A DNA stretch of 64,000 nucleotides from Acorus gramineus. Taxonomy: Eukaryota; Streptophyta; Magnoliopsida; Acorales; Acoraceae. The notes beneath the pieces are model-generated. The model made no database searches and was not told the DNA's origin. It saw nothing but the letters and a program-made list of their open reading frames with translations. Of the stretch, positions 23,453 to 43,722 are shown piece after piece (position 1 is the stretch's first letter; each line of letters begins with the position of its first letter). The stretch covers positions 9,136,134 through 9,200,133 of the forward strand of contig CM060853.1 in the NCBI GenBank assembly GCA_030737835.1, written 5' to 3'. Both the position numbers and the translations under genes were made by a program.

Positions 23453-23914
23453 CCGCATTTGTAGAGTGTAAAGATAACATATGGAAATCATTTTTGTAGT
23501 CTTTGCGTCCATTTTTGATCTGCATTTGTTCTCATAAGTTTATTTAAGAGCCGAAGTCTTGTATAAACATATTGTCTTTTGCCATAAAAAGGTTAGCTAT
23601 CTGATGCGTGAGTGATAAAATTCCATGTACAATTGGGTTCAAGTAATATTACACATTGAGACAGTGCTGGAAACGAGTTTGAAAAACAGCTTTTGAAATT
23701 AGCTTTACAGGGAGCAATTTCTTAGATGTCTGAAAAGTTTTTTTTTATATACAACTAATAGTTGTTTTTCACTTTCTTCAAAAGCTGGGACTTGAAGGGG
23801 ACATTAGAAATGTGTTGAGATTATGATATGGTGATGTGAAACAGGGCAGTTGTTTGTCTGAGTGGTTTGCTGAGGACAAAGGTGAATTGCTGAATATCTG
23901 AATGTAATTATATA
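23453..23914. other. Ferredoxin 3' flank
   Basis: Likely 3' untranslated region and downstream DNA of the ferredoxin gene. No further coding sequence seen. It ends at an A-rich tract (about 23915-23960), where the duplicated block begins. Confidence 0.5.
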
Positions 23915-24005
23915 AAAAGAAAAAAAAATACAAAAAGAAAAAAATAAAAAAAAAGAAGCAAAGCTGAATGTAATTATATATATAGATTAAAATCAAAACA
24001 CTATT

Positions 24006-24080
24006 GAGTCATAGACACAAAATGTGGCTCAAGCTTTTCTTGAAACTGTAGGAAGAGTAAGACAAGGAAAATTGAGGCTT
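24006..24080 (-). pseudogene. Remnant of a further LigB-like 3' exon end (downstream of copy 1)
   Basis: Read on the minus strand, this stretch encodes SLSYSSYSFKKS, matching the LigB C terminus [12 protein letters not shown] found at the true 3' exon 250 bp away, but the stop codon is lost and no upstream exon sequence survives. The flanking word gacacaaaatg also matches. It is best explained as a decayed end of an older tandem LigB copy. Equivalents lie at 34348 and 40732. Confidence 0.65.
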
Positions 24081-24271
24081 AATGTAACATGCATCTTTAA
24101 TCACATTATTCTAACAGAAGTCTTGCTACTATTTATGACAACATTATAACATACAAACCAATGAAACTCAGTTTTATTCACACAATAAAACACTTGTGAC
24201 TCACTAAAACATAAATACAAACAATACCAGAAAAAAAAAAAAGAACAGTAGGAGTCAGACACAGAAAATGT

Positions 24272-27240
24272 TCAGGCTTTGTTGAAACGATAGGAAGAGT
24301 AAGACAAGGACTGGTCGGTCCAGCTCTGGTGGATGAGCTCCGCCTTGGCATCGTCTCCGGCCGCCCCGAGCGCCACGTGCAACGGGTGGAAGTGTTCCGG
24401 GTACGGGTGAGCCTTCTTCGCGTACGGCGCCTTCTCCTCGTAGCGCTTCACGTCCTCGTATCTGCGCAATAAAAATGAATTATGAAACAATCTCACGTGC
24501 AGTTCTCACATGTTTTAGTTTTTCCTTTAAGACATCATGCTTCATCCGATATCTTTATTTTCTAAAAAATAAAATTTATATACTTCCATGAATTGCATTC
24601 ATATCTAATCCAATACACTACTACATTTTGGATGTTGTTACATTCAGGTAATTCTACAAACATTCATACAGATATCACATCACGCAACATAGATGAAATC
24701 ACTTAACAAAACATTCAATTCATTTATATGTGTCTTTGTAAAAAAAATGTTAAGTATTAACATTTTCCTAAATTCATTTCATATTGTGCAGTTCATTTTA
24801 CATTCCTAAATGCAATGCAGTTATTATATATATCTCGTTAGTGTTATCATTTAATTAATTCATGTACCCCCCGTTTGGGGTGTGACATAAGGTTATTCGC
24901 CCTTGATAGCTATACTAGGATAGATAACAATCCATGCTGAATAAGTAAATTTTTGTTTGGTTGTCTTTTCTGTTATTCTCATTGGGAAACGTAAAATTGA
25001 ACTTTTTGTTGTTTGGTTCACCTTGGATAAAGTAAGGATAAGTGGTAGATAAGATATGGATAAAAGTTTATGATTTTTTAAATGACAACTATACCCCTGC
25101 ATAAATAATTTGTGTTTGGGGATAAGTATGAGAGATGTATGTGTGATATGATAGATGTGACAGTTTTTGAAATGTGTGCAGAGAGTGTTAGATTAGATAA
25201 AAATTTTAAAATGACAGATAAGGGTATTTTTATCTATTGGCATAGATAAGTCCTGATGAATAATTCCATCATTTTCTTAGAATAGTTATCAGGCCTTATC
25301 CTAGCTACCAAGGTTTATTCTTGTCAAACAAACAGCTGTTTGGGGGCTATTCTACTGTATTCTTCCCTATCCATCATATATTCTCCACCCCAAACGGGAG
25401 GGGGTATATAATTCATCTTTTATAAAAATAATACATGAACAGACTCTGTTTCTTAAAATAAGAACTGGACGTAACATATTCCTTTCATGTTAATATTACC
25501 TTCCATCAAGAAGAGCCTCCGTGAGCCACGCATCAAAACCCGAGGCCCACGATGGAATGGGCCCGCCATCGGGCCCCATGTCCCCCAAATTGTGGGTCGC
25601 ACTACCGGAGCCCATGACGAGGACCCCCTCATCCCTAAGTGGGCCCAAGGCCCGGCCCATCTCGTAGTGATACGTCGCGTCCTTTCGGGCCACGACGGAC
25701 AGCTGGCACACCGGGATGTCCGAGTCCGGGTACATGAACATCAGTGGGACCCACGCCCCGTGGTCCAGCCCACGGGCCTTGTCCTCCTTTACTGGGCCGA
25801 GGCCTGCCCCGTTCAAGAGGCCCACCACTCGCTTTGCTAGGGCTGGAGCTCCTGGTGCTGGGTACTTGAGCTGTACATAGCAAAAACAAATTATTATTAT
25901 TAGGAATTGATGATATCAAATTAATTTTTGCACATGTAAATGAAAATAAAGAAATAAAAAAAGAATTGACAATTTTATGTAAATGATATAATTATGAAAA
26001 ATGTTATAAATTTTTCAACAATATAAATCTCATCTAAAATGCAGACCACATATGTACTTTTATAAAATATGAAATATATGTTCTAATAAATTAAAGAGTG
26101 AAAATTTTTCAACGATATAAATCTCAATACAATGAGTATGAGAGGTTAATAAGATATATAAAATTGTATTTATAACGATAAAAATGACTGAGTGCTCTGT
26201 ATTTATATAAGCAAGCATATGGACAGATGGCCAGATATGAGAATTGATGATATTATATTAATTTTAAGCACGTGTAAATGAAAATAAAGAAACAAAAAAA
26301 AATTAACAATTTTATGCTAATATAATATATTTAGGCAGGCATGTGCACAAAGATTGAATAAAAAACACAGTTTTCTTTTTTTTACTATTTTTTTCTCTTT
26401 TAATATAGATCTCAATAATGACTACATGGTTTGGGGATTCAATATTTTCAACTAATTTTTAGATACTGGTCACATAAATTCATAAAACCAACAAATATAC
26501 TGCATTTCACATTTTCAAACACTGATTTATAATATAATTCTAGTTTTGTTTTTAATTTGGATGACATTAATATAATTTGAAATATGAGAAAACAATTTTG
26601 GGTAAGCTATAGATTTTCATAATAAGTGCATATGAGAAGATAAACCAACCAATATTTTGAAATTCACATTCCCTTGGTTTTATTTTTTTGTATTTCATAT
26701 AAAATAAAAAATTGATTCCATTCATTTATATCTGATAATTACAACAAAATCAAAACTTTCATAAAATCCTTATAAAAAAAAAATCCCAACATTTTCAATT
26801 AAAATTATGCATAATGCACCATCAAAAACAAAACAAAACAATCAAATTTTCGATAGATTCAAAAACCCCAAATCACGAAATCCAGATCGAGAGATCCTAT
26901 CAAAAAAATCAAATTTTTCGATCGACCCATCAGTTATCACGGCCTAAGATTCAAAAACCCCAAATCACGAAATCAAGATCGAGAGAGATCCGGACAACAA
27001 TGGCCGACCGACCTGATACATGGGTTTGGGGAATCCATAGAAGTCGTAGATGGTGGAATTCGGACCGTCGATGACATTCACCGACGGATTGGAGGTCTCC
27101 CAGTGAGCGGAGACGACGAGGATCGCTTTAGGTCTCTCGGGGAGGACCTTCTCCCGCCATGACTTCAAGAAGTGCCTCGCCGGGACGGTCTCGTCGATGG
27201 ACATCGACGGTGCGCCGTGTGATATGAAGAAGGTGTCCAT
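24272..27240 (-). CDS. LigB: LigB-type extradiol ring-cleavage dioxygenase (DODA-like), copy 1
   Basis: Class III extradiol dioxygenases open catechol-type rings with a His-bound metal; plant LigB relatives include the betalain enzyme DODA. Three exons on the minus strand, 27240-27013, 25870-25500 and 24461-24272, join to 262 residues, the usual family length. Metal and acid-base histidines are visible: H8 in FISHGAPS, H46 in SAHWET, H169 in GSGSATHNL, and the HFHPLH cluster at 223-228. The segment [20 protein letters not shown] is typical. SATHNL rather than a betalain-type motif suggests the general plant LigB form, not a pigment enzyme, though substrate cannot be read from sequence. ATG 27240 is chosen because a TATA box lies 133 bp upstream and FISHG follows directly. 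Intact and apparently functional; cytosolic, as no signal peptide is seen. Confidence 0.93.
24867..25404. mobile_element. 538-bp MITE in intron 2 of LigB copy 1, absent from copy 2
   Basis: Copy 2 shows the empty site (catgtatataattc). In copy 1 the site is split by a 538-bp insert that starts CCCCCCGTTTGGGGTG and ends CACCCCAAACGGGAGGGGG, imperfect terminal inverted repeats, flanked by a TA duplication (24865-24866 and 25405-25406). TA target duplication suggests Tc1/mariner, although the GTTTGG-type termini resemble Harbinger elements. No transposase. Insertion followed the duplication, unless copy 2 lost it precisely. Confidence 0.85.
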
Positions 27241-27372
27241 CACAGCCGTTCGATTTGTGAGATTGAAAAGGGAAGGATTTGAAAATGTGATTTGGAAAGG
27301 AATTGTTTTGAATCTTGAAATAAAAAGAGGGATTTTTTTTTTAGGTGGGAAAGAATGGATGGTCTTCAGTGT

Positions 27373-27382
27373 CTATTTATAG
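27373..27382 (-). promoter_or_regulatory. TATA box of LigB copy 1
   Basis: CTATAAATAG on the minus strand, 133 bp upstream of the start codon and conserved in copy 2 at 37209-37218. A transcript starting about 30 bp downstream would have a leader of about 100 bases. Confidence 0.75.
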
Positions 27383-27784
27383 GCCATAGCCATTTTTTGT
27401 TTTGGGGACTTTTTGTGTTCTTTTGTGCCTCAAATGTCCCCTTGTATTTTTATAATATATTGATTCTGCGTTTAAGATTTTGAGAATAATTTATTTTAAT
27501 TTTATAAAAATAAAAAATTATCAGTTTTATTTTTTTTTATATTTGTTAAAATTAAAACAAAAAAAATGTTGAAAAATGTTATTTCAAATTTTAGGTAAAA
27601 TTTAAAAAAAATCATTTTTATTTGAAAATTAGAGCAATCATATACATTTTATGTTTAGTATTTTATAAAAATAAACGAGATAAATTATTTTCTCTCCACT
27701 TATGTGCGCACCTATTCCATTTTTTTTTTTATAAGAAATAATAGATATTCAGTCTTAAATTCATTACCAAAAGAAAGACAATGC

Positions 27785-28138
27785 TCAAAGCATATAAAAG
27801 CGAAATAAGATAAAATCATGTAAACTAACGAGGGTCAGATGAATAGTAAAAGAGATGCCTACTGGACATACCTGGCTCCCACCCAGACAACCCAATGTCT
27901 CAATATAGATCCTTTCGCTCGAGAAGGATACCCTACTTGTACTCGCACAGTGCATACCCCAGTCCATAATGAGACTCACAACTATATTCCAAATGTTTTC
28001 AAAAGACCAAGTGGTTGCATAAGACTCAAAGGGCCCTGGAAAAACTGCAGGGATGACCGTTTTTAGCACCTTAGCCTGTGCACTGTGAACTCTAACCCTG
28101 GAGCGCTTCCGGTCGGCCTCTCCCTTATCTCTACACAT
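27785..28138 (-). CDS. Hypothetical conserved open frame upstream of LigB copy 1
   Basis: A 117-codon open frame lies 0.4 kb upstream of the LigB TATA box on the same strand. It is present in copy 2 as 100 codons, with a 51-base in-frame loss and several substitutions. No domain, signal peptide or known family is recognised; a patch near the start is basic (RKRSRVRVHS). The preserved frame may reflect selection or just the young age of the duplication. It could also be debris of a mobile element. Confidence 0.25.
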   Translation of the reverse strand: MCRDKGEADRKRSRVRVHSAQAKVLKTVIPAVFPGPFESYATTWSFENIWNIVVSLIMDWGMHCASTSRVSFSSERIYIETLGCLGGSQVCPVGISFTIHLTLVSLHDFILFRFYML

Positions 28139-29935
28139 TCCATTGTTAAATTAGCTGGTAAGACTAGTTTGATAAAAGATTAAAATTTTATTATTTAAAA
28201 AAAGATAAAAAGGCTAGTATTTTTGTCCTTATCAATTGACCAGCAGAAATAACATTTTTCAACTGGTCCACAAAAACTAGATTTTTCAAGCAATTATAGA
28301 TATAAATGTAAACAAATCTTTGATTGGATTTCAATTAAGCATTAAACACTTTTTGTATTTATTCAAACACCTTTTTGTGTTTATGTGGACAGTGGGTTGC
28401 TTTCATTTTGAGTTTGTGAAAAAAAAACCATGTTTGATTGGTCATTCAAAACGTCAGCAAGTGCGTTAGAGGTGATGTCTATATATGTATAAATTCAAAT
28501 GAACCCCTGTAAACTGCTAGATATCTATATAACCCCTTTGACTTTTTATAAAATTCATATAACCCACTGTAAACATTTGTGTAAATCTAAAGAACTCCTG
28601 AGTTAAACTTTTATTGATAGATGAGGAATATTCTGTTAATATTTTGTTTGATTAACTCTGATTGAAAATGCAGTATACCAAAAAAACCACTACAATGTGT
28701 TAAAAATGTGAAAAACACTCGGTAAATGATGATTATACTTCTCTAAATAGATTGGATAAAATCGTTATTTATAGAAGATTTTTCACATTTTTAAATTTTT
28801 TATAGGAGTTTTTGATATACTGTATTTTTAACCAAAGTTAACCAAACATAATATTCGAAGAATATTCCTTATTAGTCAACGGAAATTTAACTCAAGGAGC
28901 TATTTGGATTTACATAGATGTTTTCAAGGTGTCATATGGGTTTCAAAAAAAATTAAGGGGTTATTTGGATTTTAGATAGTTTACAAGGGGTTATATGGTT
29001 TTCTCCCATATTTAAAATATGATAAGGTGGTTTTAAAGTTATCATAAGAGATTTGGACTTTGTTGCTTTTTTTTAGGGTTAAAGATATTTAAGTCTTCGT
29101 AAACATAAATAATCTTATATAAGTCCTTACAAACTTGGAGTCGAACATACATATCCCTGCAAACCCAAAAAAATGTCTCATAGATCCCTACCGTTAACCA
29201 TTATTAACTCCCCTATGGTTAAAAATAATTATGAATGTAAATTGACTATAATACTCTCGCACGTGTCTTTCTCCAAAAAAAAAAAATTAAAGATACCTAA
29301 ATCCATATAAATATGCATAATCTCACATGTCCTTTTAAACTTGGTGTCGAACATACATGGTCATGCAAACACAAAAAATATCACATACATTCTTACATCA
29401 ACCATTATTAAGTGTGAATTTACTATTAAGACCCTCCAAAAAAAAAACTTTATTCTTCAAACAAATATTTCAACTGAATCTCTCATTTCTCAATCTCACC
29501 CTCTCACCAACACTATAACGATATAAAATGATTTAATTTTTACTCTAGAATTTATACTAACACTATTTATGCACACGTGCAATACATGTTCTTTGAGGCT
29601 AGAATAATCTAATTTATATTATGCATCTAAAAATAGTGTCTATACAAACTCTAACAACACCAACTTGTTTGGCCATGAAATAAGTCAAAGATAATCCAAA
29701 GTGGAAGAAGACAAGGTTAAAAATAGAAGAAGAGTGAAAATAAGTTTTGAGGATAAAATAGCCATTTAAAAGGACCTATGTGTTTTTTTATGTGTTTTCA
29801 TAAACTTATATGGGTATTTTAATTTTATATGGATAGAATATTATAAAAATATATAGTTAAAATGGATGAAAACTTAACTCATGGATTAAATTAACTAATT
29901 ATAACGGTTTAAAAAACATGTATCTCAGACAATTA
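28139..29935. other. Non-coding AT-rich part of duplicated unit
   Basis: Shared with copy 2 (about 37900-40300, apart from the hAT insertion there). Contains internal imperfect repeats of the phrases 'aacccctgtaaac' and 'gggttatatgg' in opposite orientations (28500-28620 and 28880-29010), suggesting another old fold-back element of about 500 bp. No gene seen. Confidence 0.45.
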
Positions 29936-30434
29936 GGTCTAGTTTGGTAAATGGATAAATATTTAGGATAAGTTAGACTAATTTATGGGGATAAAAAGAT
30001 CATTATTTTTACCCAGATTTACATTTTATAATGTATTTTATTATCTCCATTTTTTGTGTTCTTATCTTTAATTTTGCATTTGAATAGCATGATATAAAAT
30101 ATGAGATATAAAAAAAAATTAAAAATATCAGGTCTACCATTTCTATTAATGGGGCATTAATATTGTTGGTTTTGGTTTAATGAATATTTTTATTTTTATT
30201 TTTTGAGAAGAGCAATCATAAATGTTGTCCATGTTTTGCAAAATGAGGTTAAAAAATGGAGATAAATTCTGTTTCGCCTTTTACCAAGAATAAAATATCA
30301 CCACCTTTTCTTTCAAAATACGGACAATTGTCAATGCTTTATCCTTTTTTTTTTCTTATGCCATATACGATAATATGTGATTTAACTTAATTATTTTCTT
30401 ATCCCAGCCCCTTATTCCAATGCCAAACCAAATT
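29936..30434. mobile_element. Tourist/Harbinger-like MITE
   Basis: Starts GGTCTAGTTTGGTAAATGG and ends, on the other strand, AATTTGGTTTGGCATTGG, with TTA at both borders (29933-29935 and 30435-30437). Imperfect GTTTGG-type inverted termini and a TTA target duplication are the marks of Tourist elements. No coding sequence. Absent from copy 2. Confidence 0.6.
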
Positions 30435-30437
30435 TTA

Positions 30438-30890
30438 GCCCTGTTTGGAACAAGAATAGAGGGTCGGATAACCGGATATAAAGGGGAATAAGGGATTTTG
30501 GGTGTTTGGAAAACACAGAATAGCTAAGGATAAAGTATGCCAAAATAAATTGGTATAAAGTGGTATATGGATTCCATCAACCTCTGGAATTAAAGTTATT
30601 CTAGGTTATTTCACCTAAAGAATATGTGGGCCCACTGTCAAATCAACTGTCATCACCTCTTATAAATCACACGTCAAATCAAATTATTATTATTTTTTCA
30701 CATTTTATAAATCTTTATCGACACTTTATTTACATTTTACCCAAACAACAAAAACTTTTTATTACGTTTTTCAACGAAAATAATTCAAAACACAACCAAA
30801 CACAAAATCACTTTATCCTTATTTATACTCACTTATACAAGAATAACTGTATACTTAAGAATAAATCATATTTTGTAGTCAAACGGAGGC
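30438..30890. mobile_element. Second Tourist/Harbinger-like MITE, directly adjoining
   Basis: Termini GCCCTGTTTGGAACAAG and, on the other strand, GCCTCCGTTTGACTACA, flanked by TTA on both sides (30435-30437 and 30891-30893). The left TTA is shared with the preceding element, so one inserted at the border of the other. 453 bp, non-coding. Confidence 0.7.
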
Positions 30891-31589
30891 TTAATTTGCA
30901 AGGATTTATATAGGATTATGCATGTTTACATGACTTAGAGCGCTTTTATCCTTTTTTTATTGTTATTTTTCCGTCTGGGTTTGAATTACTATTCAGAAAC
31001 AAAGGGAATAAAATTCTAGAAGCTTTGAATTTGATGTGGTAGGCAATGACAAGCATGGAAACCTTTTTTTAATGAAAACGATTTTTTTTTTTTTTTTGGG
31101 TAACAAAATAACATTTTTTAATGAAAACGTGTTGACCACCTAAAATATATAAGGATAAGATGAGATGTTTTCACATGGATTTGAATTATTTTATTATACC
31201 TCATACAACTACAACTCGTACAATTTAAACTATTAAAAATGGTCAACAATTTGACAAAAAGTTAAGCTTATACATGATGGTGGTGGGACAAACCTTTCAA
31301 TTGTGGCATTACGCGTAAAGCTAGCGATTGTGAGATGATGAAGGAGATTTGTGATAGACTTGACTCTGTTTTAGACAGGGTTGATCTTAAAATTAGCCCG
31401 AAGAGATTGGGCTCTAGGCGTGATTTAAAAATGAGGCCCTATATTCACATATATATTTTTTAAGTTGATAGACACAAACAAATTTTGATTATTTGTTTTT
31501 AAATTTTTATCACAAGTAATTATGACAAAAATGAATCACAGTAGAATGAGAAAAAGAGTAAAAAATAAATATAGAAAATAAATGATATT

Positions 31590-31866
31590 TGGAGGTTCCA
31601 TGGTCTAGGCAGAAGGAATTTGGGATGGTGCTATGAGTTTCATTTTTGCTTGGGGATGTTTTTGCATTGGGGCTGATGTGGTGAGGGTGAAGAGGGGCTC
31701 CTTGATGATTGCTCTATAGGTGGTAAGTTTCAGAGATTTCTTTTGGTAGATAGAGGGTCCCCCCACTCTTGTTTTCTCTTCCTCTTCCCCCCTCTTACCT
31801 GCTTTTATTTGTTGCTATGTTTATCGGGCATGTACTCCTTTCTATCTAATCTAATACAAAAAAGTA
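31590..31866 (+). mobile_element. Possible LINE 3' tail
   Basis: GC-richer, G/T-rich then C/T-rich sequence ending in tctaatacaaaaaag, of the type seen at LINE 3' ends elsewhere in this window (33930-34280, 41850-42080). No reading frame is preserved, so the call is weak. Confidence 0.35.
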
Positions 31867-32090
31867 GCAGACCCACTAAGTTCATTTTCTAAGAAAAAAG
31901 AACACTTTGACAAAAAGAGATTATGAGTGCAATTTAGTTGGTTTGGTTCAGCTTATTGTAAACTCAAATTGAATTAAACTATAAACACATCTAACCCGAA
32001 AACTGAATTAAATTGAATTATTAAAAGATACACACACACACACCTAATTATTATTTTTCTTTTACTACTTTACACATCTTAAAAATAGGC

Positions 32091-32158
32091 TATGATTTGT
32101 TGGTGGCTAAATACGGCATGATCTGACTCCGGGTAATTTCCATGTCTAGGATATGGAG
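32091..32158 (+). pseudogene. Fragment of ferredoxin gene: intron 5 end plus start of exon 6
   Basis: The stretch gatttgttggtggctaa ... gggtaatttccatgtctagg atatggag repeats 23078-23169 of the ferredoxin gene, crossing its splice acceptor (AG then GATATGGAG) with one internal deletion of about 20-30 bp. Because intron and exon sequence are copied together, this came from DNA, not from spliced RNA. Too short to encode anything. Confidence 0.85.
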
Positions 32159-32489
32159 GGCTATTATCTTCCCAAAAAAAAAATTGCTAATCACACAAGT
32201 CGTGTGATGACAGAAGGTGGACATCGATATTCCATTTCACCAATCAAATCAAATTTGAATAATTATTGCTAATCACACATTTTGTGTGATAATAAAGTCC
32301 ATGATTACTTGACAATATCCAATAATGAATGGAGTGCCTCATGGCATCGTAGTTGCTTAATCTCATCATATTCATTGTGTTGATTCCAAATTATTTTATC
32401 AATGTGGGTCAATTTTTATTTAATTCTTCTTTCAAAGAAGGGACGGTGGTGCTTTGTTGAAAGGAAAGTTAGGTTTAATGTATCCTTGT

Positions 32490-33205
32490 TCATAACAAAT
32501 GTCTTGTTGTTTGGGCGGGAGAGCTCCCACTGCGGAGTCAATTTCCAGAATTGTATTGTATGGCAGCAAACAAGGCTGGAAAAGTTGCATTGTTTTTAGA
32601 GAGCTAACGTCACCGGCGGAGCTTGGGAGATTTCGTTTCGGAGGAGGAAGCCACTCTCTTAGGCACGCCGCTGGACTGCTTGAGGGGAATGCAAATTATG
32701 CAGGGGAGAACAGACCGGGTGGTTTGGAGTGGTGACACTAGCGGGGAATTTTCGATGAAATCTTGCTATCGCTAAGGCCCTTCGTCATCGGGGTAATCGT
32801 AGTGCGACCGCCAAACTTTCTCAAATCGTAGTTCCCGCGGGTACATGGACTATATGGTTGACTCACAATATGGTCATATTCAAGGGGGTGCATGTCTATG
32901 TAGAGAACATGATTGAGATGGCGATGCATTTCATGGTCGACTGGGTCGTTTTATAGTGAGGGCGCGAGGCGTCGGCTTTGGGGTGGGGGGTGATTATCCA
33001 TCACCATGTAAGGGGTGGCGTGCACAGCCTTGGGTGATGGGTTGATAGATTCTCGTTTACTGACTTATCGCCGGGGTTTTTACTTTAGTTTATGTTCCCC
33101 TCACCTCTAAATTCCCTTCTTTTATCCCTTCCCCTTTTAAACTTTGTATCAATTTAGTTTTAAATCGTAATACAATTTCTACCTTTCGCTAAAGAAAAAA
33201 GAGCA
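32490..33205 (+). mobile_element. Degenerate LINE ORF2 3' end
   Basis: Translation in mixed frames gives DRVVWSGDTSGEFSMKSCYR, the phrase that precedes the zf-RVT domain in plant L1-type LINEs, then TWTIWLTHNMVIFKG, also typical near the end of ORF2. A pyrimidine-rich 3' UTR and a short A-rich end (about 33190-33205) follow. Stops and frameshifts throughout. The part 32841-32990 recurs at 40306-40470. Confidence 0.75.
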
Positions 33206-33929
33206 AATGTCTTGTTGTAGAATGGAGAGAAAACTAAGTTACGATTAATGAAAAATATATATCACTCTATTTTAAATTAAATGAAATCATCTGTAACAAA
33301 TTTAAAAAGAAATTAACGAGATACATACCTCATCTAAAGATGTACTTTTATCTCATTAAGTACTAACTAGACTTATGTCACTAGATTTTTTTTGCTATTG
33401 TATGTGACTTACATTTAGGATGCGAAAAGAATGATGTATAACAAGGCCCATTAAATTGGGAATGAAATGTGACACATTGTTGGAGGTGGGTGGGCAGCAG
33501 CTCAAAATGAACATTGATGTTTCCTTTACATTTATATGAATCATTTGCATTTGCTCTTTGGTGATTCAAATCAGTGTCACCAATAATATAGGGATGTGGA
33601 GATTTTCCCTTCCAATAAGATTGTGACCACTAACTGTTTGACACGCCATATTTTATTGTTATTTCACACAATTTTTTGTGCATGCTTTGGCCTCTAGATT
33701 ATATGTTTGAGCATGTTTTACTTCTAATCATGTTGTATTAGCAGCTTATGAAGGGGCATTTGTCTTTCTTCAGTGTAGCCGTGTGAAAAAAAAATCTTTA
33801 TAATCAATGTTTCGCCACTTACATCATCCATTTATCCTCTCTTCCTATGTGATAGTGATTAAACTTCAAAGAATTTATGATTAAAAACCTTTCTCAAATT
33901 TTTTGTACTCTGATTTGTCTTGTTCTAGA
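33206..33929. other. AT-rich DNA at the end of copy 1
   Basis: 33240-33440 is shared with the third partial copy at 42420-42600, including the motif atacctcatctaa. From 33440 to 33930 I see no gene and no match elsewhere in the window. Confidence 0.45.
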
Positions 33930-34282
33930 TATTATACCAATGTCAGGTATGCATCTCTATGGTGTGTATTCGACAACATCTAGGGATCTACCATGTTATT
34001 CATCAAACGGTGCGGTTATACGTCGGCAGGGGCAAACCAGATTGAGTACAGACAGGGGACACTGTGTATCCTCTGGTAAACTGAACAGATGTTAACACCC
34101 CCATCCCCCTCCCCCCAACTTTCTTCTCTTAGTTTTAGCAATGTTATAATCCTCTTGTAACGTGTTAGTTCTACGCTTCCTTTTTTATCGACATTCAGAC
34201 CAAGTTTATAACTTTCTCCAAGTTTATAAAATGGTCTATCGTTGCTCAAAAAAAAAAAAAAAAAAAAAAATACAAAAAGAAA
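33930..34282 (+). mobile_element. LINE 3' end with long poly(A) at the copy 1/copy 2 junction
   Basis: About 310 bp of moderately GC-rich sequence ends in a run of A at 34248-34270, which merges with the A-rich start of copy 2 (tacaaaaagaaaaaaag). The poly(A) end and lack of a 5' part fit a truncated LINE insertion. Its A tail abuts the duplication border. Confidence 0.6.
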
Positions 34283-34347
34283 AAAAGAAAAAAAAAGAAG
34301 CAAAGCTGAATGTAATTATATATATAAATTAAAATCAAAACACTATT

Positions 34348-34422
34348 GAGTCATAGACACAAAGTGTGGCTCAAGCTTTTCTTGAAACTGTAGGAAGAGT
34401 AAGACAAGGAAAATTGAGGCTT
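34348..34422 (-). pseudogene. Remnant LigB-like 3' exon end (downstream of copy 2)
   Basis: Counterpart of the remnant at 24006-24080, carried along in the duplication: the minus strand again encodes SLSYSSYSFKKS. It shows the remnant predates the copy 1/copy 2 event. Confidence 0.65.
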
Positions 34423-34619
34423 AATGTAATATGCATCTTTAATCACACATTATTCTAACAAAAGTCTTGCTACTATTTATGACAACATTATAACATACAA
34501 ACCAATGAAACTCAGTTTTATTCACACAATAAACCACTTGTGACTCACTAAAACATAAATACAAACAATACCCAAAAAAAAAAAAAGAGAACAGTAGGAG
34601 TCACAGACACAGAAAATGT

Positions 34620-37074
34620 TCAGGCTTTGTTGAACCGATAGGAAGAGTAAGACAAGGACTGGTTGGTCCAGCTCTGGTGGATAAGCTCCGCCTTGGCGTC
34701 GTCTCCGGCCGCCCCAAGCGCCACGTGCAACGGGTGGAAGTGTTCCGGGTCCGGGTGAGCCTTCTTCGCGTACGGCGCCTTCTCCTCGTAGCGCTTCACG
34801 TCCTCGTATCTGCGCAATAAAAATGAATTATGAAACAATCTCACGTGCAGTTCTCACATGTTTTAGTTTTTCCTTTAAGACATCATGCTTCATCCGATAT
34901 CTTTATTTTCTAAAAAATAAAATTTATATACTTCCATGAATTGCATTCATATCTAATCCAATACACTACTACATTTTGGATGTTGTTACATTCAGGTAAT
35001 TCTACAAACATTCATACAGATATCACATCACGCAACATAGATGAAATCACTTAACAAAACATTCAATTCATTTATGTGTCTTTGTAAAAAAAATGTTAAG
35101 TATTAACATTTTCCTAAATTCATTTCATATTGTGCAGTTCATTTTACATTCCTAAATGCAATGCAGTTATTATATATATCTCGTTAGTGTTATCATTTAA
35201 TTAATTCATGTATATAATTCATCTTTTATAAAAATAATATATGAACAGACTCTGTCTGTAAAATAAGAACATATTCCTTTCATGTTAATATTACCTTCCA
35301 TCAAGAAGAGCCTCCGTGAGCCACGCATCAAAACCCGAGGCCCACGATGGAATGGGCCCGCCATCGGGCTCCATGTCCCCCAAATTGTGGGTCGCACTAC
35401 CGGAGCCCATGACGAGGACCCCCTCATCCCTAAGTGGGCCCAAGGCCCGGCCCATCTCGTAGTGATACGTCGCGTCCTTTCGGGCCACGACGGACAGCTG
35501 GCACACCGGGATGTCCGAGTCCGGGTACATGAACATCAGTGGGACCCACGCCCCGTGGTCCAGCCCACGGGCCTTGTCCTCCTTTACTGGGCCGAGGCCC
35601 GCCCCCTTCAAGAGGCCCACCACTCGCTTTGCTAGGGCTGGAGCTCCTGGTGCTGGGTACTTGAGCTGTACATAGCAAAAACAAATTATTATTATTAAGA
35701 ATTGATGATATTAAATTAATTTTTGCACATGTAAATGAAAATAAAGAAATAAAAAAAGAATTGACAATTTTATGTAAATGATATAATTATGAAAAATGTT
35801 ATAAATTTTTCAACGATATAAATCTCATCGAAAATGCAGACCAAATATGTTTTTTTTTTTTTTATATCATATATCTCATCTAATGAGATATGAACTTTTA
35901 TAAAATATGAAATATATGTTCTAATAAATTAAAGAGTGAAAATTTTTCAACGATATAAATCTCAATACAATGAGTATGAGAGGTTAATAAGATATATAAA
36001 ATTGTATTTATAACGATAAAAATGACTGAGTGCTCTGTATTTATATAAGCAAGCATATGGACAGATGGCCAGATATGAGAATTGATGATATTATATTAAT
36101 TTTAAGCACGTGTAAATGAAAATAAAGAAACAAAAAAAAATTAACAATTTTATGCTAATATAATATATTTAGGCAGGCATGTGCACAAAGATTGAATAAA
36201 AAACACAGTTTTCTTTTTTTACTATTTTTTTCTCTTTTAATACATAGTTGGCAACATGTGAACATAAACATAGATCTCAATAATGACTACATGGTTTGGG
36301 GATTCAATATTTTCAACTAATTTTTAGATACTGGTCACATAAATTCATAAAATCATAAAATCATAGTCTTTGGGATGTCTACAAAACAACAAATATACTG
36401 CATTTCACATTTCCAAACACTGATTTATAATATAATTCTAGTTTTGTATTTAATTTGGATGACATTAATATAATTTGAAATATGAGAAAACAATTTTGGG
36501 TAAGCTATAGATTTTCATAATAAGTGCATATGAGAAGATAAACCAACCAATATTTTGAAATTCACATTCCCTTGGTTTTATTTTTTTGTATTTCATATAA
36601 AATAAAAAATTGATTCCATTCATTTATATCTGATAATTACAACAAAATCAAAACTTTCATAAAATCCTTTTAAAAAAAAAATCCCAACATTTTCAATTAA
36701 AATTATGCATAATGCACCATCAAAAACAAAACAAAACAATCAAATTTTTCGATCGACCCATCAGTTATCACGGCCTAAGATTCAAAAACCCCAAATCACG
36801 AAATCAAGATCGAGAGAGATCCGGACAACAATGGCCGACCGACCTGATACATGGGTTTGGGGAATAATCCATAGAAGTCGTAGATGGTGGAATTCGGACC
36901 GTCGATGACATTCACCGACGGATTGGAGGTCTCCCAGTGAGCGGAGACGACGAGGATCGCTTTAGGTCTCTCGGGGAGGACCTTCTCCCGCCATGACTTC
37001 AAGAAGTGCCTCGCCGGGACGGTCTCGTCGATGGACATCGACGGTGCGCCGTGTGATATGAAGAAGGTGTCCAT
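34620..37074 (-). CDS. LigB: LigB-type extradiol ring-cleavage dioxygenase (DODA-like), copy 2
   Basis: Second intact member of the tandem pair. Exons 37074-36844, 35665-35295 and 34809-34620 join to 263 residues with the same intron positions as copy 1. All candidate metal and catalytic histidines are kept ([29 protein letters not shown]). Differences from copy 1 are few: an extra Leu in [12 protein letters not shown] from a 3-base insertion, Asn to Lys in the GLLKGAG loop, Gly to Glu just after THNLGDM, Tyr to Asp before PEHFHPLH, and Asp to Asn near the C terminus. The Leu insertion interrupts a segment (YGFP) usually unbroken in this family and could alter activity. Copy 2 has the Asp form before PEHF. 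Promoter and TATA box are conserved, so it is probably expressed. Confidence 0.92.
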
Positions 37075-37208
37075 CACAGCCGTTCGATTTGGGGGATTGA
37101 AAAGGGAAGGATTTGAAAATGTGATTTGGAAAGGAATTGTTTTGAATCTTAGAAATAAAAAGAGGGATTTTTTTTTTTAGGTGGGAAAGAATGGATGGTT
37201 TTCAGTGT

Positions 37209-37218
37209 CTATTTATAG
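37209..37218 (-). promoter_or_regulatory. TATA box of LigB copy 2
   Basis: CTATAAATAG on the minus strand, 135 bp upstream of the start codon, in the same context as copy 1. Confidence 0.75.
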
Positions 37219-37583
37219 GCCATAGCCATTTTTTTGGAGACTTTTTGTGCCACAAATGTCCCCTTATATTTTTATAATATATTGATTCCGCGTTTAAGAT
37301 TCTGGGAATAATTTATTTTAATTTTATAAAAATAAAAAATTATCAGTTTTATTTTTATTTATATTTGTTAAAATTAAAACAAAAAAAATGCGAAAAAATA
37401 TTATTTTAAATTTTAGGTAAAATTTAAAAAAAAATCATTTTTATTTTAAAATTAGAGCAATCATCTACATTTAATGTTTAGTATTTTATAAAAATAAACG
37501 AGATAAGTGCGCACTTATTCCTTTTTTTTTTAAGAAATAATAGATATTCAGTCTTAATTTTATTACCAAAAGAAAGACAATAC

Positions 37584-37886
37584 TCAAAGCATATAAAAGC
37601 GAAATAAGATAAAATCATGTAAACTAACGAGGGTCAGATGAATAATAAAATAGATGCCTATTGAACATACCTCGCTCCAACTCAGACAACCCAATGTCTC
37701 AATATAGATCCTTTCGCTGGAGAAGGATACCCTACTTGCACTCTCGCACAGTGACCAAGTGGTTGCATAAGATTCAAAGGGCCCTGGAAAAACCGCAAGG
37801 ATGACCGTTTTTAGCACCTTAGCCTGTGCACTATGAACTCTAACCCTGGAGCGCTTCCGGTCGGCCTCTCCCTTATCTCTACACAT
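37584..37886 (-). CDS. Hypothetical conserved open frame upstream of LigB copy 2
   Basis: 100-codon counterpart of the frame at 27785-28138: same start, same basic N-terminal patch and same last 13 residues, but a 51-base in-frame deletion removes 17 codons in the middle. No family recognised. Confidence 0.25.
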   Translation of the reverse strand: MCRDKGEADRKRSRVRVHSAQAKVLKTVILAVFPGPFESYATTWSLCESASRVSFSSERIYIETLGCLSWSEVCSIGIYFIIHLTLVSLHDFILFRFYML

Positions 37887-38024
37887 TCCATTGTCAAATT
37901 AGCCGGTAAGACTAGTTTGATAAAAGATTAAGATTTTGTTATTGAAAAAGGATAGAAAAACTAGTATTTTTCTCCTTATCAATTGACCAGCAGAAGTAAC
38001 ATTTTTCAACTGGTCCACAAAAAC

Positions 38025-39107
38025 TAGGGGTGCAACTTGGGCGGGTTGAACCTGACCCAACCCGACCCAACCCGGCTAGTGGGCGGGTTCGGGTTGGGGT
38101 TTTTTAGCGTCGGGTTCAACCCGACCCGAACCCGAACCAACCCGAACCCAATTCGGGTCGGGTTCGGGTTGGCGTCTCGGGTTGGTCGGGTTGAACCCGA
38201 ACCCGCATATTATTATAGAGGGGGTTAAATCTCAGCCCTTCATCTTTGATATGGAAAAATCATAGCCCTCTATTCCAATTAAACCTAATTCATCCCACCC
38301 CTTTCACTCACTGCCGTCAAACTACACGTCTACACTCAAACCTCTCCAATCGGACCAATCCTCACGGCCTCACCGACCGGGCGACCCTCACCGACCGCCC
38401 GACCCTCCCCGACTCTCGACGGCCCTCACCAACCGCCCGACGTTCACCGATCCACGCCGCCCGACCCTCCCCGACTCTCGACGGCCCTCAGCCCTCACCG
38501 ACCGCCCGACGTTCACCGATCCACGCCGCCCGACCCTCCCCGACTCTCGACGGCCCTCAGCCCTCGCCGACCGCCCGACGTTCACCGAATCACGCCGCCC
38601 GACCCTCCCCGACTCTCGACGGCCCTCAGCCCTCACCGACCGCCCGACGTTCACCGATCCACGCCGCCCGACCCTCCCCGACTCTCGACGGCCCTCAGCC
38701 CTCGTCGACGCAAAAAGAGAGGTTCGTTCAATCATTCACTCTGTGGAGACTTGTTTGTGTGATATAGACCGACCATGGCTTCTAATGGAAAGATATTATT
38801 TACATTTGTGAAAATCAAGATAGAATAAAAAATAAATGTTATCCTAATCTTTACATAAAACTAAAAAAATCAGTAGTTTTTAATTTTGAAATTGGAGTAT
38901 GTTTCCACTTCATCTCAATTTTTTTTTTACCCTCGGGTTCAACCCGAACCCGACCCGAAACCGCGGGTTGAGGTCGGGTTCGGGCTCGGGTTGCACCATT
39001 CGGGTTGAGGTCGGGTTCGGGTTCGGGTTCGGGTTGGGCACTGTATATCGTGGGTTGGGCTTGGACATGTCTTCAACCCGACCCGACCCGCCCGAGTTGC
39101 ACCCCTA
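38025..39107. mobile_element. Non-autonomous hAT-type transposon, 1083 bp, clean insertion
   Basis: Copy 1 gives the empty site (ccacaaaaactagattttt). In copy 2 the 8-bp target ACAAAAAC is duplicated exactly (38017-38024 and 39108-39115). Terminal inverted repeats of about 21 bp, TAGGGGTGCAACTTGGGCGG and TAGGGGTGCAACTCGGGCGG, differ at one place. Subterminal regions are packed with CGGGTT/AACCCG words in both orientations, as in many plant hAT non-autonomous elements. The centre holds a 69-bp minisatellite. No transposase; it would depend on an enzyme from elsewhere. Confidence 0.93.
38409..38705. repeat. 69-bp minisatellite inside the hAT element
   Basis: The word gacgttcaccga recurs at 38439, 38508, 38577 and 38646, exactly 69 bp apart, giving four nearly identical units plus a partial one. 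As 69 is a multiple of three, both strands stay open and read as 23-residue repeats (PSPTARRSPIHAARPSPTLD on the plus strand), but this is a consequence of repeat length and GC content, not evidence of a protein. Confidence 0.92.
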
Positions 39108-40305
39108 ACAAAAACTAGATTTTTCAAGCAATTGTAGAGATAAATGTCAATAAATCTTTGATTGGATTTCAATTAAGCATTAAACACTTTTTGTATTTAT
39201 TCAAACACCTTTTTGTGTTTATGTGGACAGTGGGTTGCTTTCATTTTGAGTTTGTGAAAAAAAAAACCATGTTTGATTGGTCATTCAAAACGTCAGCAAG
39301 TGCGTTAGAGGTGATGTCTATATATGTATAAATTCAAATGAACCCCTGTAAACTGTTAGATATCTATATAACCCCTTTGACTTTTTATAAAATTCATATA
39401 ACCCACTGCAAACATTTGTGTAAATCTAAAGAACTCCTGGGTTAAACTTTTATTGATAGATGAGGAATATTCTGTTAATATTTTGTTTGATTAACTCTGA
39501 TTGAAAATGCAGTATACCAAAAAAACCACTATAATACGTTAAAAATGTGAAAAACACTCAGTAAATGATGATTATACTTCTCTAAATAGATTATAAAACC
39601 TTAGTCGAAGGGGTAAAATCGTTATTTACAGAAGATTTTTCACATTTTTAAATTTTTTATAGGGGTTTTTGATATACTGTATTTTTAACCAAAGTTAACC
39701 AAACATAATATTCGAAGAATATTCCTTATTAGTCAACGGAAATTTAACTCAAGGAGCTATTTGGATTTACATAGATATTTTCAAGGTGTCATATGGGTTT
39801 CAAAAAAAATTAAGGGGTTATTTGGATTTTAGATAGTTACAAGGGGTTATATGGTTTTCTCCCATATTTAAAATATGATAAGGTGGTTTTAAAGTTATCA
39901 TCAGATATTTGGACTTCTTATTTTTTTTTAGGGTTAAAGATATCTAAGTTTTCGTAAATATAAATAATTTTATATAAGTCCTTACAAACTTGGAGTCGAA
40001 CATACGTGTCCCTGCAAACCCAAAAAAATGTCTCATAAATCCCTACCGTTAACCATTATTAACTCCCCTATGGTTAAAAATAATTATGAATGTAAATTGA
40101 CTATAATACTCACGTGTCTTTCTCCAAAAAAAATAAAATAAAGATACCTAAGTCCATATAAACATGCATAATCTCACATGTCCTTTTAAACTTGGTGTCG
40201 GACATACATGGTCCTGTAAACACAAAAAATATCACATACATTCTTACATCAGCCATTATTAAGTGTGAATTAGCTATGAAGACCCTCCAAAAAAAAAAAA
40301 ACTTT

Positions 40306-40490
40306 ATACATGGACTATATGGTGACTCACAATATGGTCATATTCAAGGGGGTGCATGTCTATGTAGAGAACATGATTGAGATGGCGATGCATTTCATGG
40401 TCGACTGGGTCGTTTTATAGTGAGGGCGCGAGGCGTCGGCTTTGGGGGGGGGGGGGGGAGAGGGGGATTATCCATCACCATGTAGGGGTC
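40306..40490 (+). mobile_element. Second copy of LINE fragment 32841-32990
   Basis: Begins at tacatggactatatgg and follows 32841-32990 almost exactly through gtcgactgggtcgttttata gtgagggcgcgagg, then a G run and the phrase gattatccatcaccatgta. Its left edge is the point where copy 2 departs from copy 1, so it marks a deletion junction. Confidence 0.85.
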
Positions 40491-40583
40491 CAGGTCTATA
40501 TTTTCTTGGACCCACCGGGTCCTGTCACGGGTCTAGTCCAGGTCCGCCCTGACCCGACCCGAATCCGACCCGTTGACAGGCCT
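40491..40583. mobile_element. Short fragment of a GGGTCGGGT-type hAT element
   Basis: Starts TAGGGGTCCAGG and ends, on the other strand, TAGGCCTGTCAACGGGTCGG, a terminus type of plant hAT elements. Only about 90 bp remain, so it is probably internally deleted. Confidence 0.45.
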
Positions 40584-40731
40584 AATATAAACTAATGAAA
40601 CTCACTTTTATCCACACAATAAAAACACTTGTGACTCACTAAAACATGAACACAAACAATACAAAAATAAACGAAAAAAACAAAGGAAGCAAAGCTGAAT
40701 GTATAATATAGATTAAAATAAAAACACTATT

Positions 40732-40806
40732 GAGTCACAGACACAGAAAATGTGGCTCAAGCTTTTTTTGAAACTGCAGGCAGGGTAAGACAAGCAAAAT
40801 TGAGGC
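40732..40806 (-). pseudogene. Remnant LigB-like 3' exon end in third copy
   Basis: Same element as at 24006 and 34348: gagtcacagacacagaaaatg then a tail like ctgcaggcagggtaagacaa, complementary to the LigB C-terminal codons. Flanked on both sides by copies of the 3' flank sequence (caatgaaactcagtttt type), one at 40590 and one at 40915. Confidence 0.6.
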
Positions 40807-41040
40807 TTAATTTTTTGATGTAAATCCCATGGAGGCTTTTAATGTAATATGCATCTTTAATCACATTATTCTACAAATGTCTTGTTACTATTTACGAGAA
40901 CATTATAACATACAAACCAATGAAACTCAGTTTTGTTCACACAATAAAACACTTGTGACTCACTAAAACATATACACAAAGAATACCAAAAAAAAAAAAA
41001 AAAAAGAACAGAACAGTATGTATAAATAAAAAACACTTAG

Positions 41041-41335
41041 ACGAACAAGGTTACAGCGACTGGTCACCCTAGTCAGGTCAGACGAAAGTTAGGTCTTCTT
41101 CGGCCAGGTCGGGCGGCTGCCTTATCTTCTGGTCATCTCATTCTGATCGAATGCCCGACCAGCTCTTCATGGACCCATTCTAATGTGTGACTTCATCTCG
41201 TCCTTTAGACATAGTGGGGCGGATAGCCACCTCCCTTTCATGGGCCCTCTAAACAGATAGCCCTGCGAATCAGCGTGGCCTTGCGAATAGACCCATCTTG
41301 TATCTTATTCTCATTTGATTCTAGTTTTCCTGCAT
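41041..41335. other. GC-rich insert of unknown origin in third copy
   Basis: About 295 bp not found in copies 1 or 2 interrupt the third copy. It contains GGTCGGGCGG and related words and may be part of an LTR retrotransposon terminal repeat, but no paired repeat or coding sequence supports this. Confidence 0.35.
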
Positions 41336-41611
41336 ATCTTTATTCCTTAATTCAGTTAACTACGGATTTGGTCTTCCACAATTTACATTTGTCAAAATCA
41401 AGACAAAAAAAATGTTCATTAATATTGTTTTAGGTGGAAACAAAAAAAAAAGCTCATTTTCATTTCAAAATTAAAGCAATTATCTACATTTTATCTCGAT
41501 TATTTTTATAACAAACGAGATAAATTATTCTTCCTCCACTTATACCCACACGACCACACCTATCCCCTTATCTCTACATATTTCATTGTCAAACTAACAC
41601 TTAGGACTATA

Positions 41612-41716
41612 GTTTTTTAAAGATGGGTGCTCCCCTGGATTTGATTTACTGACCTCCTTTACAAAAAGGGGGTATGATGCTAACCAACTAATCAAAGTTC
41701 GATTCGCCCTTAAGAC
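41612..41716 (-). mobile_element. Possible SINE head (tRNA-like sequence)
   Basis: On the minus strand the sequence reads TTAGTTGGTTAGCATCATAC, box A-like, followed about 35 bases later by GGTCAGTAAATCAAATCC, box B-like. It does not fold as a complete tRNA and has no clear poly(A) end, so a SINE fragment is more likely than a tRNA gene. Confidence 0.4.
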
Positions 41717-41844
41717 TAGTTTAACAAGGGATTAAAATTTTGTTATCCTTATTTTAAAGCATAAAAATGCTATCATTAAAACCGCAAAAGTAATATTTTT
41801 TAGAGACCGAGTCCACAAATACTCTCTGAGCTGATCTCACAAAT

Positions 41845-42085
41845 GATCTCACAAATGATCCAGGTGATCGTTGGTGCGCCTTTTAGATGGTGCGAGTGGG
41901 GTCTCGGGGTTAAATGTCTCTTCTACCATAAAGTCTTACCTACCTTCCCCCTATTTTCTTTGTTTTTATTCCATTTTCTCTCGTTTGTTCTCCCTTTTTT
42001 TGTAAATCCCTTTCAAACTCTTATAACTTCGATATCTTAATGAAACAGTTGTCTACCGTTTCTCTAAAAAAAACAAAAAAAACCT
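41845..42085 (+). mobile_element. LINE 3' tail with A-rich end
   Basis: Sequence ending cttcgatatcttaatgaaac agttgtctaccgtttctcta then an A-rich run at 42066-42082 is a common form of plant LINE 3' terminus. No ORF2 sequence is left. Confidence 0.55.
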
Positions 42086-42620
42086 ACCTTTACGTGAAAT
42101 AAAAATGTCTAATTGGCCAAAACGTCAGCAAGTGCGTTAGAGGTGATGTTTATGTACTATAATTTTTAAAATATGATTAGGTGGTTTTAAAGTTATGGTT
42201 TTAAAAGTTGTAATAATATAAGAGACTTGGACCCGTTGTTGTGTTTTTTTTTTTTAATTATTATTTTCCAGTCTGGGTTTGAATTACTATTCAAAAACAA
42301 TGGGAAAAAAATTATGGAAGCTTTGAATTTCAGAAAAATATAAAGGATAAGATAAGATGTTTTCACATAGATTGAATTTTTTATTATTATTATAGCTTAT
42401 ACAGTTATACAACTACAATTACGATTAATGAAAAATGTATATCATTTTATTTTGAATTGAATGAAATCATTTGTAACAAATTTAAAAATAAATTAACGAG
42501 ATACATACCTCATCTAAAAATGTATTTTTATCTCACTAAGTACTAATGAGACTTATGTCACTAAATGTGAAAAGAATGATGTATAACAACGCCCAATATA
42601 AAATTATAAAAAAATGATAG

Positions 42621-43722
42621 GCATTAAGAAAATAATTAGACTCATCTTCTCCCTCTTAAATTAGATATAGAACTCCTAAACTGAACCAAATTGAATTCAA
42701 CTTTGCTCAAGTAAACATAGTCTTACGAAATGCTTAAAAAATATTAAATTTATGAAAAATATTAGAATTAGTCATTTTTATCGTTAAAAACTCAGATCAT
42801 GTTTTTATTTTTTTAAAAAAAACATTAAACATTATCTAATGTATATGCTTTAATAAAAGTTTATATCACTCTATTTCAAGTTGAATGAATGAACTCGTTT
42901 TTAATAAGTATAATAAAAAAATTAATGAGATATATATATATTGTCTAACGATATACATATTTCACTAGATTTCTAACAAGATTTGTAAGACAGGTAAAAA
43001 AAGTGAGTGCAACAACACAAATTTATTAATTCAAATAATGCAAGGACCATACCTTCATATCCTCATTCAAATTCCAATAATTTAAATACACGTGTAATGA
43101 AAAAAAACAAATATATAATATAATATTGATTGGATACTGATATTTTTTCAGAACAAATACCCTTTAGACATCATATATGATATCTGAATCCATATCCAAC
43201 AATTGACAGGGTTAAATGCAGACCACAATGGCCTCAGTTGGCTCAACTGTAGCAAGATGAACATTCACTTGGATGACTATGAGATCATTCAGGCCTAAAG
43301 AAGACAAGAGTGAAGTATAACTAAAATTTTCATTGCATACATAGGAAGAAAATAATGTGTACCCCAAGCAATCCATCTATATAGCTATGACAAAATTTTC
43401 TCACTGCAAGCTGAACAGTTAATCTAACAAGTAAGGGTGACAATCAACTATATTTCATGTCAAAATAAAAATGTTCAAAATTAAGTAACCCCAATAAGGG
43501 ATTTTCTTTATCCATCTTTATCAACTCATGATTCACTTTCTTTCCAGCATGAGCCCCTCCTTTAATCTGCCTGCTTTTGTCCCTCCCAATATAAATTATG
43601 AATAATTCATGATAACCGATGTTTTCCCGGCCATGCAGTAGTTTGTTTTTCCCTTCATGGCTTGATGGATGATGACTTTTGAAGCAGTTTCCACAACAAG
43701 TATAATTAGATTACCTTACGGA
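42621..43722. other. UGGT 3' flank and AT-rich repeat DNA
   Basis: 42840-43020 resembles the AT-rich repeat at 33240-33370 and ends in gtgagtgcaacaacac, similar to other copies of the small dispersed repeat. 43020-43722 probably includes the UGGT 3' untranslated region. No gene seen. Confidence 0.45.

Follow-up and report, generated by a model that had tools for sequence, protein, structure and literature searches.

Neighbouring LigB genes and repeated duplications of them are known in the Caryophyllales (PMC4493658, PMC7384185, PMC4557044; here and below, the papers are cited for the excerpts of them that were available), and PMC4557044 places the lineage among the most highly duplicated in the Caryophyllales, with rates substantially above those of the outgroups. 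At the LigB locus on Chr4 of Beta vulgaris, a Class I LigB gene and a DODA-like gene lie ~7.6 kb apart (PMC4493658). The Class I protein AtLigB (AT4G15093) participates in the synthesis of arabidopyrones, and its cleavage of L-DOPA can yield muscaflavin (PMC12138177). Here, we describe a LigB array from Acorus gramineus, located in a window of 64,000 nucleotides (C7:9136134-9200133; C1, C3 and C7 are contigs of the assembly, and positions given without a contig are those of the window, the whole stretch that was analysed). This array is very probably the product of a recent local tandem duplication of a Class I-like plant LigB gene, coding for an extradiol, non-haem-iron ring-cleaving dioxygenase, and not of a betalain-type DODA gene. 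It resembles the beet locus in having neighbours of the same family, in their spacing and in exon structure; unlike in beet, where the neighbours belong to different classes, the genes found here are near-identical copies, neither of them Class II.

The array contains two intact LigB genes, copies 1 and 2, and a decayed third unit (Table 1). Both genes consist of three exons with GT-AG splice sites and a single open frame. The exon sizes are 228/371/190 bp in copy 1 and 231/371/190 bp in copy 2, in which exon 1 carries one additional codon, Leu70. A six-frame search of the genome with PF02900 (E <= 0.001; 8/8 candidates scored), a procedure blind to strongly decayed fragments, gave 9 matches, corresponding to the three exons of each of three genes: copies 1 and 2 and an intact gene on contig C3, with exons of 228/371/190 bp. 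All three predicted proteins cover nearly the whole Pfam LigB profile, with 193.8, 196.4 and 192.2 bits, respectively, against a gathering cut-off of 26.3. The beet exons measure 246-260, 371-378 and 190-193 bp (PMC4493658), so that exons 2 and 3 fit this range, and exon 1 is slightly shorter here. Matching blocks of units 1 and 2 are spaced 9.7-10.9 kb from start to start. Thus, a preliminary description of this DNA, which had placed two intact LigB genes on one strand ~10 kb apart in an array spanning 23915-42620, was accurate in both respects.

Table 1. Features of the LigB array and the related gene on contig C3
Feature	Position	Strand	Details
LigB copy 1	24272..27240	-	exons 27240-27013, 25870-25500, 24461-24272; 262 aa; Pfam LigB 3.9e-57
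LigB copy 2	34620..37074	-	exons 37074-36844, 35665-35295, 34809-34620; 263 aa; Pfam LigB 6.3e-58
Third LigB gene, intact	C3:9484590-9481307		three exons; six-frame PF02900 search
Array unit 1	23914..34251	-	3' flank, gene, promoter, long upstream part; upper limit is the start of unit 2
Array unit 2	34252..40584	-	self-comparison of the window
Array unit 3, decayed	40585..42566	-	3' flank 40585-41011; promoter pieces 41382-41823; upstream pieces 42094-42566
Exon-3-tail relic, unit 1	24029..24068	-	87.5% over 40 bp, E 1.5e-6
Exon-3-tail relic, unit 2	34371..34410	-	87.5% over 40 bp, E 1.5e-6
Exon-3-tail relic, unit 3	40757..40794	-	79% over 38 bp, E 0.004 (weakest)
Low-divergence tract, candidate gene-conversion tract	24404..27354	.	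21/2330 mismatches inside, 107/2493 outside; about the gene body
540 bp insert, intron 2 of copy 1	24865..25403	.	78% identical to C3:9511930-9512460; dispersed element
~1.09 kb insert upstream of copy 2	38018..39107	.	holds G+C-rich 69 bp minisatellite 38422-38703

The three units share a common 3' boundary in an A/T-rich tract (~23914, 34252 and 40641). The alignment of units 1 and 2 runs from the 3' flank to ~2.2 kb upstream of the start codon. In the self-comparison of the window, the bulk of unit 1's upstream sequence (29454-32841) had no match in unit 2, which keeps 40307-40488, matching 32842-33014, and the distal part of unit 1 (33387-34251) had no match in the other units. A blastn comparison of unit 3 with unit 1 (23900-34250; both strands searched, E <= 1e-4) yielded 11 matches, all on the plus strand, with identities of 68-94% and in the order of unit 1, save for the internally repeated 3' flank. 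Beyond the 3' flank, they correspond to positions 27536-27703, 28122-28278, 28416-28495, 29008-29042, 30952-31252 and 33232-33386 of unit 1. When 50 first-order Markov shuffles of unit 3 were put through a plus-strand search as a control, they produced 1 match between them. The counterpart of 24246-27535, which includes the whole coding region, is gone from unit 3 and ~370 bp of unmatched sequence (41012-41381) lie in its place; no trace of exons 1 and 2 was found in unit 3 by blastn and tblastn up to E 10. The decayed third unit of the preliminary description, with collinear flanking pieces and lost coding exons, was therefore borne out. The possibility that unit 3 is a dispersed repeat was considered and rejected: searched against 140 kb from elsewhere in this genome, its five pieces produced 1 match (82 bp, 77%).

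A remnant of the exon 3 tail, accompanied by a 3' flank of its own, is also present in all three units, downstream of the true exon 3 or its former place, and unit 3 has a further copy of the 3' flank at 40585-40682. This distribution suggests that a partial duplication of the exon 3 tail and 3' flank may have come before the array. In the 3' flank, unit 3 is 81.5% identical to unit 1 and 79.9% to unit 2, and the block holding this flank is 97.6% identical between units 1 and 2, which places unit 3 as the outgroup of the pair in the 3' flank.

The divergence of copies 1 and 2 is uneven. Over 23914-29453 we counted 128 mismatches in 4823 columns (aligned, ungapped columns are the denominators throughout), indels besides. 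Mismatches number 0/228 in exon 1, 3/371 in exon 2, 6/190 in exon 3, 16/1559 in the introns, 9/358 in the 3' flank and 94/2117 upstream. The earlier statement that the copies share exons, introns and about 2 kb of upstream sequence with very few differences thus holds for the exons and introns and applies less well to the 2.2 kb upstream. The contrast between introns and upstream sequence is significant (Fisher p 2.3e-10) and is independent of the segment test, in which the low-divergence tract was matched in 0/200 permutations; their grid was coarser than the one applied to the data, a difference that biases the test towards significance. A run of identity as long as the longest observed (488 columns) occurred in 0/5000 permutations. 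Indels of at least 8 bp comprise the extra 540 bp in intron 2 of copy 1, an extra 1091 bp upstream of copy 2 and nine of 11-67 bp. The simplest reading is that the gene bodies of the two copies were probably homogenised by gene conversion.

It is possible, though we consider it distinctly the less probable course, that this conversion step alone is wrong, and that conservation of the gene body has another cause or mutation is faster in the flanks, as in methylated repeats, for example. Transitions make up 65/94 of the upstream mismatches and 8/16 of those in introns, and a dispersed repeat lies within the upstream part, both of which fit faster-mutating flanks; however, transversions taken alone also differ (29/2117 upstream, 8/1559 in introns; plain counts, without a significance test), and a four-fold constraint is not expected of introns. 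A much less likely explanation for the array itself is an assembly artefact, in which units 1 and 2 would be two haplotypes of one locus set head to tail. A divergence of 1-4% with indels is within the range of a heterozygous plant. Unmerged haplotypes would not predict the absence of a long duplication of the outer flanks; yet left of 23914 and right of ~42600 the self-comparison of the window revealed no long duplication, only short matches (such as 43 bp, 23127-23169 to 32116-32158) and further weak ones (such as 42801-42888 to 21601-21689, at 69%). Moreover, one A/T-rich 3' boundary starts units 1, 2 and 3, unit 3 is an older version of this unit, with ~80% identity in the 3' flank, and the upstream parts 30952-31252 and 33232-33386 of unit 1 match unit 3, with no match to unit 2 found. 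Several observations weigh against a tandem origin with conversion as we read it. The copy number was read from the assembly sequence alone, which also fits the artefact. The identities of the unit 3 matches are uneven, and the anchor at 42411-42566 may be a repeat, as a part of it (42431-42511) also matches a C1 stretch at 77% and its unit 1 counterpart also matches 42850-42984 at 72%. The low-divergence tract also contains indels as long as 540 bp, so that a single, very recent conversion event covering all of it would be an oversimplification. With tandem duplication as the preferred reading, we infer that a unit spanning the 3' flank, the gene and several kb upstream would have been duplicated first, that the coding region of unit 3 would next have been deleted, and that the surviving unit would later have been duplicated anew to give units 1 and 2, the gene bodies of which were then probably homogenised.

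The proteins of copies 1 and 2 are identical at 258/262 aligned residues, with a nonsynonymous divergence (dN) of 0.0067 and a synonymous divergence (dS) of 0.028-0.030. Nine codons differ (4 replacement, 5 silent), besides the inserted codon of copy 2, and dN/dS is ~0.24, a value resting on these 9 changed codons only. The C3 protein shares 209/262 residues with each tandem copy, at dS 0.61-0.86. Since such a diverged third LigB gene exists, the tandem pair does not represent the initial duplication from a single-gene state. At a substitution rate of 6.5e-9 per site and year, the pair would be roughly 2 million years old (dS 0.028), unit 3 about 16 million years (3' flank) and the split from the C3 gene 47-66 million years (dS 0.61-0.86); these dates are rough, and conversion makes the tandem pair appear younger. 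Outside the exons, the array yielded no match with the C3 gene. An origin of the two loci as a pair left by whole-genome duplication was considered, and a comparison covering 100 kb of C3 (blastn, E <= 1e-6) returned the LigB exons and, apart from these, presumed dispersed elements only, with no conserved neighbour; such an origin is unsupported at that scale, which does not prove its absence. An open reading frame near the C3 gene appears to resemble a SET-domain Rubisco-methyltransferase-like protein.

For the assignment of class and function, residues were mapped on the Beta vulgaris DOD protein (BvDOD); PDB 8in2 was assumed to be the protein described in PMC11926856, with which its residue numbers agree (His15, Thr17, Lys26, His53, His119, His175, His229, Asp254, Tyr260). 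In BvDOD, His15, His53 and His229 are Fe ligands, and His119 and His175 are catalytic (PMC11926856). All five are present in 3/3 Acorus proteins, and Tyr260 is kept as well. Because these histidines are retained, both tandem proteins are probably active dioxygenases on a catechol-type substrate, as is AtLigB. This activity is not certain, since the Arg typical of Class I is gone and the tandem copies have Ala at the Thr17 position. H-N-L-R is given for Class I LigB after the catalytic His (PMC4493658) and is also found in YgiD (2pw6), whereas the three Acorus proteins have HNLG, HNLG and HNLM. The positions of Thr17 and Asp254 are occupied by Ala/Ala/Ser and Thr/Thr/Thr; a Thr17 Ala mutant of BvDOD lost much of its function and Asp254 also matters (PMC11926856), so that both replacements count against a BvDOD-like mode of action. 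The proteins are like Class I plant LigB, of which AtLigB is the studied case, in the PF02900 domain, the active-site His residues and the His-Asn-Leu past the catalytic His (PMC4493658), and unlike this class in the Gly, Gly and Met that replace the Arg.

Comparison with 4,5-DOPA dioxygenase extradiol chains (8in2, 29ky and 9j2l, the class of which is inferred from His-Pro) showed the same family and the catalytic His, with 157/258 residues identical to 8in2. All three chains have His-Pro after the catalytic His; in 3/3 Acorus proteins Asn is found there, and neither the Pro of DODA-alpha/Class II nor the pattern P-(S,A)-(N,D)-x-T-P is present. Site 227, which is Trp in DODA-alpha and Ala in DODA-beta (PMC4557044), is Ala in 3/3 proteins, within a KAP(Y/N)A segment; this column was equated with 227 from the Trp that 8in2, 29ky and 9j2l share. 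At both DODA-alpha-diagnostic sites of PMC4557044, one of them mapped by inference, the three predicted proteins are therefore in the non-alpha state. As all three have His-Asn, the genome-wide PF02900 search shows no DODA-alpha gene. The PDB search gave 4 matches, none of Class I type, and for that reason nearness to DODA there is uninformative on class. A catechol-cleaving role unrelated to betalains is most likely.

Nothing in the tandem pair yet points to a new function. It is nonetheless conceivable, though unlikely, that the pair divides functions, copy 2 (with the extra Leu70, a single change specific to it and two more whose direction is unclear) or the diverged upstream sequence providing a new substrate or expression domain, in parallel with the origin of DODA. 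The contrast between upstream sequence and introns, together with the 1.09 kb insert, fits divided expression; in copy 2, moreover, the added residue lies beside the FP segment and Gly is replaced by Glu a few positions past the catalytic His, and PMC4493658 mentions a preliminary report of in vitro DOPA 4,5-cleavage by some LigB proteins from outside the Caryophyllales. The near-identity of the proteins and the dN/dS, with its small number of changed codons, argue against divided functions, as the missing DODA-alpha residues do against the parallel, and a Class I protein from Dianthus yielded no pigment in an assay (PMC4493658). More speculative still, and very improbable in our estimate, is that a three-gene family without the HNLR Arg, in a plant without DODA-alpha, took on a lineage-specific ring cleavage, and that the tandem pair, with its inserted residue and acidic change past the catalytic His, may be in an early divergence comparable to that of DODA before betalains. 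Stizolobic acid in Mucuna is synthesised by LigB relatives.

The array lies on a contig of 24.7 Mb, in an assembly of 398.6 Mb in 137 contigs. The structure of the LigB genes and the closest proteins of solved structure suggest a plant nuclear genome. Open reading frames to the left (4.9-8.0 kb, plus strand) match SNF2 and DUF3535, and those to the right (46.9-63.6 kb, minus strand) match UDP-g_GGTase, Thioredoxin_12 and Thioredoxin_14; as read from these domains, the flanking genes are BTAF1/Mot1-like and UDP-glucose:glycoprotein glucosyltransferase (UGGT)-like, respectively. The minisatellite in the upstream insert of copy 2 has a 69 bp period, 4.1 copies and 96% matches. Upstream of copies 1 and 2, the stretches 28502-28992 and 39341-39848 match each other also in reverse orientation (~72%) and have relatives at C3:9441191-9441521 in both orientations; this stretch looks like a hairpin-forming mobile element. 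Positions 30434-30867 are 86% identical to C3:9523231-9523665 on the opposite strand and are probably a dispersed element. In 140 kb of the same genome, dispersed matches were found for the 540 bp insert (3), 28281-29453 (3) and 29454-30951 (2).

The preliminary description took LigB as usually single-copy outside the betalain-producing Caryophyllales, a view neither confirmed nor refuted here; the phrase "single copy" has 0 occurrences in the available text of PMC4493658 and PMC4557044. A literature search made mostly without subscription journals recognised no precedent for LigB duplicates outside the Caryophyllales. The preliminary description had suggested that a tandem LigB array bears on the origin of DODA. 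A true tandem array is supported, and the link to DODA is weak, given the diverged third gene on C3, the non-DODA-alpha residues and the near-identity of the copies. LigB is the family from which the beet-pigment enzymes came elsewhere, and the array by itself is no test of how DODA arose. The young Class I-like tandem pair looks like an ordinary local duplication that would mainly alter dosage or expression. Outside the DODA-alpha lineage, it would provide a LigB tandem array that is both young and well delimited, in a genome where copies differ in age (the pair, the decayed unit and the C3 paralogue), and is useful as a baseline for the behaviour of LigB duplicates where no DODA-alpha gene is found.

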